A DNA stretch of 20,468 bases. Source: a virus. How positions within the stretch are numbered: position 1 is the first letter of the stretch; the number at the start of each line of letters is the position of its first letter. The notes under the pieces are model-generated. The model saw only the letters and a list, made by a program, of their open reading frames with translations, was not told the origin of the DNA and searched no databases. Shown here one piece after another: positions 2,419 to 5,128 of the stretch. The stretch lies in the IMG/VR virus record IMGVR_UViG_3300043466_001880, positions 1 to 20,468 of that record; one strand, 5' to 3'. A program made the translations under genes and the position numbers.

Positions 2419-2950
2419 TCTCCCCCTCCCCATCCAAGCCCTCACCCGAGGGCTTTTTTGCGTCTATGAGCTCCCTAGGCGCCTCCAGGGGCACCCCCTC
2501 AATGCTCGGTGCCTCCAGCTCCCTGGCCACTCCGTCAATAATATCTGCACTTAATACCCTATTTTTAGCAGATTCTAATGCGCCATTAATACTAATAGTT
2601 GTTTGAACTATTTCGTGTTTCTGAGTTTCTGCCCAACGCATTTGCGTCTTCGTCCACCAGATCAGCGAAGCTGTGTCGCCGTCCATCGCCTTCTGAAAAA
2701 GCTTCCCGCCGATCTTCGCATGTGCTTTTGCTTTTCCTAATTCTAATTCTTTTGAAAAATATTCGAATAATACATTCTTCGCAACTCCGTCGCGGATCAA
2801 CGCCGCAATCTGATCTTGCGACAATCCGAGTCCTGCGTATTTCTCAACAAGCTCACGGTCTTCGTCGGTCGGAACGAACGGCTTTCGACCCGCTCCCGGT
2901 CTCGCCCCACCCCACCCAGAAATTTCTTGTTTTCCTTTTTCAACGGACAT
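2396..2950 (-). CDS. terS: Phage terminase small subunit
   Basis: The small subunit recognises the packaging site and hands DNA to the large subunit. The 184-residue protein begins with the basic, glycine-rich leader GGARPGAGRKP (14-24) common in small terminases, followed by a helix-turn-helix region (about 40-75, LGLSQDQIAALI as the core). A central helical part then contains AKIGGKLFQKAMDGDT and WWTKTQMRW, which match the small-terminase pattern. The acidic tail is probably flexible. The start at 2950 has a perfect AGGAGG ribosome site. Unusually, terL does not follow it directly: about 1.9 kb with an opposite-strand operon separates them, and that operon's terminator lies inside this gene's 3' end. 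Confidence 0.85.
   Translation of the reverse strand: MSVEKGKQEISGWGGARPGAGRKPFVPTDEDRELVEKYAGLGLSQDQIAALIRDGVAKNVLFEYFSKELELGKAKAHAKIGGKLFQKAMDGDTASLIWWTKTQMRWAETQKHEIVQTTISINGALESAKNRVLSADIIDGVARELEAPSIEGVPLEAPRELIDAKKPSGEGLDGEGEIKGSDGP
2437..2459 (+). terminator. Intrinsic terminator of the plus-strand cassette, inside terS
   Basis: AGCCCTC (2437-2443), loop ACCC, GAGGGCT (2448-2454), then a run of T to 2459. The T-run faces plus-strand transcripts only. It lies 18 bp after the end of the zinc-ribbon gene and wholly within the coding sequence of terS on the other strand. Confidence 0.85.
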
Positions 2951-3002
2951 GTTAGTGCCTCCTAACTTAAAAATTTACCGTACCGTAATTGGCCCACTGA
3001 AT

Positions 3003-3128
3003 TTAGCGTAACAGCGTAACTCCCCTAAAGGGGGGAGTTACGTTACGTTACGCAAAAATGTCATCCTTGTCACATATCGTAACTGCGTAACAGTTACGCA
3101 AAAGTTACGCTGTTACGCTAAGAGTTAC
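3003..3128. repeat. Cluster of GTTAC/GTTACGC repeats: candidate origin or regulator-binding array
   Basis: In about 120 bp there are eleven GTTAC words counting both orientations: GTAAC at 3008, 3016, 3079 and 3087; GTTAC at 3037, 3042, 3047, 3093, 3104, 3112 and 3124. Seven are extended to GTTACGC or its inverse. They are arranged with symmetry: a 19-bp perfect inverted repeat (3003-3021 against 3103-3121) encloses an 11-bp-stem hairpin (3015-3025 with 3032-3042), three tandem GTTAC, and a perfect odd-centred palindrome (3085-3099). The array fills the gap between the primase-helicase stop and terS. Its position beside replication genes fits iterons of a phage origin; binding sites for a transcription regulator of terS are the alternative. 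Confidence 0.85.
3015..3042. repeat. 11-bp-stem inverted repeat within the GTTACGC array
   Basis: CGTAACTCCCC (3015-3025) pairs perfectly with GGGGAGTTACG (3032-3042) across a 6-base loop. No T-run follows on either strand, so it is not a standard terminator, although it could hinder polymerase or form a cruciform in supercoiled DNA. Confidence 0.75.
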
Positions 3129-5128
3129 TATGCTCTTAACAACATAGCCGAAGCTTGCACGGTGTCCAGAACGATCCACCCATGCTCATAGTGCCCGATG
3201 ATCTGCCCGGTCAGTAGCTCCCCGATTGGCTTGCCTTTGGCTGCGGGTCTGGCGTACATCTGTGCCGATGCTTCGGTCAATTCGAGGGTTTCGATCAGAT
3301 ATTGGATAAACCCTGACCTGCTCAAGTAGGGCTGCCCTGCTCTGGTTTCCTTGCCTGCTGATTCCCAAGCATTCTGAAATAACTTTCTATGTTTAGTTAA
3401 CTTATTATCCCCCTTATCAGATATTGGTTTATCTACTATTTGAATCACGGCGCTAGATACCTGTTCGCCGTCTTCGTCGATCCAGCCATTTATTGGGACG
3501 GATTGAATGCGTGCGAAGACCTCGGGAGCGAATTCGCTGTCCTTGGCTTTTCTTTGAACGATCTGCATCGGAGCTTCGTCTTTTGCGGGAATGATGCTCA
3601 CCTCAATGTCAAGGGCTCCGCGCCATGCGCTTGACCCTCGGGCTCGGTGCTGAGCTTCTTCGCTGACGCCGGTGTGATGGACTAGCAAAACGGAGCAGTT
3701 AAATTCCCGCATGAGCTGGGCGCAAGCGTCAAGCATGGTCTTGGCGTCCTGCGCGCTGTTCTCGTCGCCGGAGAGGAATCGGTGAAGGGTGTCGATAACG
3801 ATCAAGTCGGGGGGTTCGGGGAGCTGTTTGAGGTGGGTTGAGGTGGAGATGTAGCCCTCTGGCGTGTTCAAATCACACCCTGAACGGCTGAGCCACATTT
3901 GTAATGGGCCGGCTTGATTGTGCTGTTTCCAAGCTGCTATCCGGGCACGTAGACCGTGGTGACCTTCGCCTGCTAGATAAACAACTCTTGAATGCTTGAC
4001 TTTCTTGCCTGCCCATTCTGAGATGCCACTAGCCATTCTCAGGCACCAATCCAAGACCACGAAAGTCTTACCGCCACCTGACGGGCCGTGAACCATTATC
4101 AGGGCGTCTGACTGGAGCCAACCCTTTACTAACCACTTGATCGGTGCGGGTTGAGAACAATAATCGTCAGCGGCTATGAGCCAGGATTGCTGAGGTGGAT
4201 CTAGCAAAAGCGCCAGGTTGTTTCCAGCTTGCTGATAGTCATTCGCGTCGCCCTCGATCGGCGGAATCACATACGTGACACCATGCTTGGCGCAGGCCTG
4301 CTCGGCGTGTCGCTGGCCTACGCCGCTCTTATCGTTGTCGGCGACTATCACAATCTTTTGGCCTTGGTGCATCTGGACCAATGAGCCTGTGACAGGGATC
4401 AAGTTACTTGCGCTGTAAGCGACCACGCAAGGCCGTCCCGTCACTTCGTGGATTGTGGCCGCGGTGGCAAAGCCCTCTGCTACATATAAAACACCTGGGT
4501 GATCTAGCGTGCCGATCATCCAAAAGCGGCCACCCGTCTGACCCCCCGTGTGATAAAGCTTCCCGCCTGATTCGTCTATGTATTGCAGGCTTGAGAGTTC
4601 GCCATCTTCTGAGAAGAGTGGAACCATCAATCGACCGTCGCCCGTGACCCGAGCGCCGTGGGGTTGAACACCTTTGCGCTTGAGATACGGATGCTCGGGG
4701 CTGGCCTGGGCGCCGCTGCTCCAAATTGTCTCGACGGTACTAGCTGCAACGGAACGATCCCGCTCTATCTCTTCATCTCTGAGCCGCTTAGCCGCATTGA
4801 TGCGAGCGATGTGGGCCATTTCTTCGGCCGGGGTCCACCTCTTTTTCCCGATGTCAGCTTTGACCGTCTGAGTGAGATTGGCTCTCCAGCATCCGAACGT
4901 CAGGCAGGGGATGCCGTCGAGGTGACCAACGTACCAACCCGAACGGTCCAAAGTCTTGCGGCTGGACCCGGAGCGGAATCTATGAATCCTGCCGTCGAGG
5001 ATAAATTCCTCGGGAGCGTCGAGACCCGCCTCCTCAATAGCCCGGCTGAACTGCACTTCAATTGGGAGCGGGACGACTTCCTGGGGGGGAGACCAAGGGC
5101 CTCCAAGAATGTGCGTGAGATCAGCCAT
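3128..5128 (-). CDS. Toprim primase fused to RecA/RepA-type helicase
   Basis: A 666-residue phage replication protein. The N-terminal part (about 40-85: DGRIHRF, GWYVGHLDG) is the leader usual in phage Toprim primases. The Toprim fold supplies the catalytic glutamate (Glu218 in VLYVAEGF) and the metal-binding acidic pair Asp264/Asp266 (IVIVADND). The C-terminal half is a RecA-fold ATPase of the RepA/AAA_25 type: Walker A GPSGGGKT (348-355), Walker B LIVID (Asp446), and a sensor-like VLLVHHTG at about 480-487. No N-terminal zinc finger is visible. By family it primes and unwinds DNA at the phage fork. It starts only 4 bp after the upstream regulator's stop with no clear ribosome site, so translation is probably coupled. 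The GTTACGC array lies directly downstream. Confidence 0.9.
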   Translation of the reverse strand: MADLTHILGGPWSPPQEVVPLPIEVQFSRAIEEAGLDAPEEFILDGRIHRFRSGSSRKTLDRSGWYVGHLDGIPCLTFGCWRANLTQTVKADIGKKRWTPAEEMAHIARINAAKRLRDEEIERDRSVAASTVETIWSSGAQASPEHPYLKRKGVQPHGARVTGDGRLMVPLFSEDGELSSLQYIDESGGKLYHTGGQTGGRFWMIGTLDHPGVLYVAEGFATAATIHEVTGRPCVVAYSASNLIPVTGSLVQMHQGQKIVIVADNDKSGVGQRHAEQACAKHGVTYVIPPIEGDANDYQQAGNNLALLLDPPQQSWLIAADDYCSQPAPIKWLVKGWLQSDALIMVHGPSGGGKTFVVLDWCLRMASGISEWAGKKVKHSRVVYLAGEGHHGLRARIAAWKQHNQAGPLQMWLSRSGCDLNTPEGYISTSTHLKQLPEPPDLIVIDTLHRFLSGDENSAQDAKTMLDACAQLMREFNCSVLLVHHTGVSEEAQHRARGSSAWRGALDIEVSIIPAKDEAPMQIVQRKAKDSEFAPEVFARIQSVPINGWIDEDGEQVSSAVIQIVDKPISDKGDNKLTKHRKLFQNAWESAGKETRAGQPYLSRSGFIQYLIETLELTEASAQMYARPAAKGKPIGELLTGQIIGHYEHGWIVLDTVQASAMLLRA

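Follow-up and report, generated by a model that had tools for sequence, protein, structure and literature searches.

Which protein reads the dense cluster of short repeats found between the stop codon of the primase-helicase gene and terS in this virus, and does the cluster serve as an origin of replication? The window, which is the entire 20,468-bp virus record, carries 11 GTTAC words at 3006-3128 (within 125 bp), seven of them extended to GTTACGC. They had been described in a sequence-only reading of this DNA and all could be located by coordinate. On the plus strand seven read GTTAC (starts at 3037, 3042, 3047, 3093, 3104, 3112 and 3124) and four read GTAAC (starts at 3008, 3016, 3079 and 3087). 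CGTAAC is present in 10 copies in the array region, compared to a maximum of six copies for any 6-mer in 5000 dinucleotide shuffles, and no 6-mer has more than five copies in any other 230-bp stretch of the window. A chance origin of the array is excluded because its copy number exceeds both the shuffles and the rest of the window.

The elements that were initially distinguished inside the array are all present: a 19-bp perfect inverted repeat (3003-3021 and 3103-3121), an 11-bp hairpin stem (3015-3025 and 3032-3042), three tandem GTTAC (3037-3051) and a perfect palindrome (3084-3100). The outer inverted repeat was rejected as a functional or separate conserved unit. It is missing in relatives with other spacings, and its presence in the window phage and in L004-L006 results from two word pairs with the same 8-bp spacing. 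The real unit of the array is a pair of five-site modules, with three of the sites forward and two reverse, separated by a spacer of ~24 bp and with a hairpin inside module 2. The features observed are the following.

3124..3128, minus strand: 11th GTAAC word, overlapping the helicase stop codon (TAGTAAC) and outside the shared layout
3078..3118, minus strand: module 1, three forward and two reverse sites on the helicase strand
3054..3077, minus strand: inter-module spacer, with GTGACAAGG in the window and GGGGCAAAA in many relatives
3006..3053, minus strand: module 2, three tandem forward sites, hairpin and two reverse sites
3021..3036, minus strand: module 2 hairpin, TCCCCCCTTTAGGGGA on the helicase strand; its TTTA-type loop is kept and its stem compensated in relatives

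Elsewhere in the window, long C and G runs are found between terL and the first plus-strand gene (600-720), and three tandem copies of a 10-bp unit (AAGCCAACAC) lie at 1303-1340, just before the gene at 1351. The 102-residue product of a plus-strand gene at 2110-2418, convergent with terS, has an NrdR-like zinc ribbon (Pfam PF22811, marginally above the cut-off).

Relatives of the primase-helicase, confirmed by tblastn in viral contigs, bacterial genome contigs and named phages, number hundreds and most of them carry a two-module array straight behind the helicase stop. At least six copies of one 6-mer occur within 230 bp of this stop in 71% of 105 nonredundant loci. The corresponding figure is 0.34% for 3243 control windows taken from these loci, and zero for 2100 shuffles. 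About a fifth of the nonredundant loci have no clear array by count (22% score fewer than five copies behind the stop); among these low-scoring loci the array is positioned further down in some (L030, L059 and L078) and none was found in others. The layout observed in relatives, read on the helicase strand, starts with three forward and two reverse sites; after a spacer of ~24 bp come two to three forward sites and, beyond a hairpin of 14-17 bp, two reverse sites again. The word of 6-7 bp differs between relatives and is altered in all copies at once while the layout persists, a rewriting that is invisible from the window sequence alone. Words found include GCGTAAC, GCGCAAC, GGGAAC, CGGAAC, GGTAAC, CGTATC and CGTACC, and further CGGACC, GGTACA, GGGACA, GGTTCA, TGGACA, TGACCC and GCCCCT. 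Named isolates have arrays as well: CGphi29 (GGGACA), 1N2-2 (GGTACA), PB15 and XX1924 (GGTTCA). Related phages, in which a search for GTTACGC clusters at the same place had been proposed as a check of the sequence-only reading, keep the position and layout of the array with words that differ. The spacer motif GGGGCAAAA recurs independently of the word (e.g., in L116 and L141).

The arrays are not restricted to one helicase type. The helicases of L044, L045 and L048 are chimeric, with a window-like Toprim half and C-terminal winged helix flanking a different helicase core, and arrays are also found in L044 and L048. Proteins with another C-terminal domain (the L051 group and prophages such as L150, L152 and L157) are associated with arrays of other words. 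Distant prophage helicases (L146, L148, L150, L152, L153, L155, L156, L157 and L160) have another C-terminal domain and arrays behind the gene or at its end, so the plan extends beyond the helicase family of the window. In L042, L047, L163 and L171 the helicase frame stops near residue 599 and is followed by a separate small frame of different sequence; no array was found nearby in these four loci.

The protein encoded next to the array, which is the main candidate for its recognition, has the following organization.

3128..5128, minus strand: primase-helicase, proposed initiator (Pfam Toprim_3 2e-11 and AAA_25 5e-37; PHROG DNA primase families)
3131..3451, minus strand: C-terminal winged-helix domain, residues 560-666, proposed array binder (AlphaFold2 pLDDT 89.6; no Pfam family)
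3224..3283, minus strand: recognition segment, residues 616-635 (ELTEASAQMYARPAAKGKPI), peak of a sliding partial Mantel scan (0.556; M624 column 0.472)

AAA_25 is the only helicase domain reported in the helicase region, with no SF3, DUF927 or D5/Primase_Cterm domain. The model of residues 560-666, built with 66 relatives in the alignment, shows its elements in winged-helix order, and the recognition segment is predicted to form a short helix (619-625) and the loop that follows it. The C-terminal domain matched no Pfam family in the 70 members searched, and its only match in a PDB sequence search was at chance level. Structural comparison of the domain model with Foldseek and VIA-align 2 retrieved no more than generic winged helices, none of them an informative relative, with a best Foldseek E of 0.12 and a best Z of 7.3.

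The coupling between array and protein was assessed by sliding a 20-residue frame over the 666-residue protein and correlating frame distance with word distance, helicase-core distance being partialled out. One peak only was observed, at residues 616-635 (permutation p 0.0005), while the highest value for frames ending before residue 575 is 0.135. A column scan of the whole protein ranks M624 first, ahead of Y625 and R627. All eight GGGAAC or CGGAAC loci have V at position 624 and all four CGCAAC loci have I; M is present in seven of the eight CGTAAC loci, the remaining one having Q, and 19 of 20 GGTAAC loci have Q. Residue 624 is not a complete code by itself, K and N each accompanying several words. 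Two extra scans supplied an out-of-sample set of 76 new distinct loci with a detectable word, which was predicted from the nearest known 18-residue segment or from the nearest helicase core. The segment gave the correct word in 73 of 76 cases, against 52 for the core; of the 22 loci for which their predictions conflicted, the segment had 21 correct and the core none. Two of the three segment misses are arrays that mix GGGAAC and CGGAAC. This test covers fewer words than the whole set because the new loci come mostly from two clades. Note that the loci are related and that the permutation test preserves only part of this relatedness, a caveat which is answered by the localisation of the peak, by the out-of-sample test and by the natural pairs of close relatives presented below. 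The covariation reveals coupling of word and segment; it does not report on binding strength or on replication. The primase-helicase, one of the three ligands considered at the outset, is strongly supported by covariation and out-of-sample prediction, in the absence of a binding assay.

Two further features of the relatives concern the function of the site. The hairpin was tested centred on the loop C(TTTA/TATA/TTAA)G, four loci whose centre is probably wrong being kept in. Over 30 distinct hairpins the covariation of the stem is 0.692; shuffling lowers it to 0.231 +/- 0.039, and sliding gives no value above 0.303. Each of the five stem pairs of the module 2 hairpin varies on both sides and the TTTA-type loop is retained. 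DnaA boxes (TTATNCACA) are observed at 1.03/kb near arrays and at 0.025/kb elsewhere, with 51 boxes in total against no more than 10 for any of 300 scrambled motifs. In 102 further loci their density is 4.36/kb near arrays versus 0.066/kb, and their offsets are fixed, with two boxes between the helicase stop and the array, close to the stop, and a third beyond the array, ~190 bp from the stop. The window and its nearest clade lack canonical DnaA boxes. The boxes of relatives are the main protein-independent evidence for the site as an origin, a support that is indirect and, like the covariation, drawn from sequence comparison. GC skew is not decisive for the origin position: of three named phages, two isolates have their skew minimum close to the point of divergent transcription, at 1-3 kb from the array, and the third has it elsewhere.

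The array is very probably a phage replication origin, an iteron-type landing pad to which the C-terminal domain of its own primase-helicase would bind. The initial proposal of an origin is strongly supported by the covariation, the out-of-sample prediction and the DnaA boxes of relatives; binding in vitro, ring loading, strand opening and the start of replication are inferred. The C-terminal winged-helix domain would bind the word of 6-7 bp, residue 624 and its neighbours reading the bases. The ten sites of the two modules would gather the helicase, perhaps with one ring per module, a two-ring model that is inferred from the 5+5 layout and from analogy to SaPI. The hairpin and nearby DNA would then open and the fused helicase and primase start the fork, probably with the assistance of host DnaA in many relatives.

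Covariation attests coupling to a binding domain and not the effect of binding, which leaves room for the array being an operator rather than an origin, bound by the helicase C-terminal domain to repress its own or downstream genes. This is unlikely: the array is positioned behind the helicase gene, the next gene varies between relatives, and DnaA boxes surround the array in relatives. A promoter and terminator scan gave no match above chance at the array, with a single, weak promoter-like match in 2800-3400 that falls within the helicase gene. A packaging (pac) site bound by TerS, which had also been envisaged and is suggested by terS being the next gene in the window, is very unlikely since just 4 of 83 loci have a window-like TerS at 400 bp or less. 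The array remains at the helicase even where terS starts ~1.9 kb (Salicola phage CGphi29) or ~6 kb (Alteromonas phage PB15) from the helicase end, and its word follows the helicase domain. There is equally little to favour an RNA structure in the 3'-terminal part of the helicase transcript: the strong self-folding of the array (z -7.5 as single-stranded DNA) and its compensated hairpin would fit such a structure, but Rfam has no match in the array region and the words change in all copies, in both orientations, together with the protein segment, none of which is needed by pairing alone. The helix-turn-helix (Cro-like) regulator encoded just upstream of the helicase, the remaining ligand that had been put forward, adjoins the helicase gene, yet the possibility that the array is its operator can practically be discarded, its sequence being unassociated with the word (partial r 0.035 in 66 loci, versus 0.58 for the helicase segment in the same loci) and its divergent promoter region lying 2 kb from the array.

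The reading of the array as an origin addressed by its own primase-helicase raises the question of how word and domain change together. At least 31 changes of word are counted on the helicase-core tree, whose 74 tips have 18 words. L077 and L071 have helicase cores that are 96.8% identical and words that differ by one base (GGTAAC to GGGAAC). Their residues 560-666 show five differences, three of which are in the recognition segment (Q624V, S630A and P631T). Their DNA identity is mostly 92-97% up to the helicase end, 68-71% across the array and 94-95% behind it. Pairs of this type isolate three segment changes and one word base, making the recognition code directly testable. In the pairs L088/L081 and L204/L203, identity drops over the end of the helicase gene and the array alike, the pattern that a joint exchange of domain and array would produce. 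A tentative reading, plausible but falling somewhat short of probable, is that the array is a hypervariable origin address whose domain and array are repeatedly rewritten or exchanged as a unit under antagonistic pressure from rival phages, satellites or origin-directed nucleases (cf. ICP1 Odn/PLE). This would provide a natural library for the residue-to-base code of an undescribed winged-helix domain.

Several known systems share parts of this organization. The C-terminal domain of SaPI Rep and of SCCmec Cch2 binds iterons located just downstream of their own gene (PMC7581432), and every PICI origin has an AT-rich region flanked by two sets of iterons, an arrangement described as unique to PICIs (PMC6092414). 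The likeness to the Rep-ori systems of SaPIs and PICIs resides in an initiator helicase with a C-terminal DNA-binding domain (binding being inferred here from covariation and prediction), in short iterons directly 3' of the initiator gene (by position, in the 71% of loci given above) and in two iteron sets, which correspond to the two modules of the window and its relatives. The differences are that the system belongs to a tailed phage and not to a satellite, that a RecA-like AAA_25 helicase and a Toprim primase replace the DUF927 or D5-type helicase, and that a hairpin with conserved loop is found within one set. An AT-rich melting region between the sets is not met here, the spacer being ~24 bp and, as read from its sequence, about half G+C in L116.

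The P4 alpha protein combines primase, helicase and an origin-binding winged helix in one polypeptide that targets repeats (PMC4234260, citing Ziegelin and Lanka 1995 and Yeo 2002). The window protein resembles it in the fusion of Toprim_3, AAA_25 and, in the model, a C-terminal winged-helix arrangement. The P4 alpha helicase belongs to SF3, in contrast to AAA_25 here. P4 has separate ori and crr sites; in the window, which is a fragment, there is one array only and no second, crr-like site could be identified. ORF904 of pRN1 is likewise a primase-helicase with a C-terminal winged helix and an origin directly behind its gene, in which the sequence of a stem-loop varies and its structure stays (PMC4234260); it differs by the lack of iterons and by the association of an archaeo-eukaryotic primase with an SF3 helicase. 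In PLE satellites of Vibrio cholerae the DNA-binding domain of RepA covaries with the origin and the two are exchanged as one module, probably in response to attack by Odn, a nuclease of ICP1 (PMC8263062). Their initiator is of the RepA_N type without helicase, and two alternative modules are known, compared to the 18 words reported here. The system described here works like these systems, SaPI/PICI Rep-ori and P4 alpha-ori among them, and is a member of none, because its helicase fold differs, its spacer is short and not consistently AT-rich, and its hairpin lies inside a module. No description of it was found in the literature searched, from which most subscription journals were absent.

The occurrence of a similar plan in a phage family whose helicase is unrelated suggests either convergence or exchange. 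In the literature accessible, an origin address that is rewritten repeatedly is otherwise documented only in a few satellites (PMC8263062). In a large and mostly uncultured group of phages, one putative origin, its initiator and the segment that would read it can be named from sequence alone, and the joint rewriting of the DNA word and of the protein segment reading it exposes how DNA recognition changes in nature.
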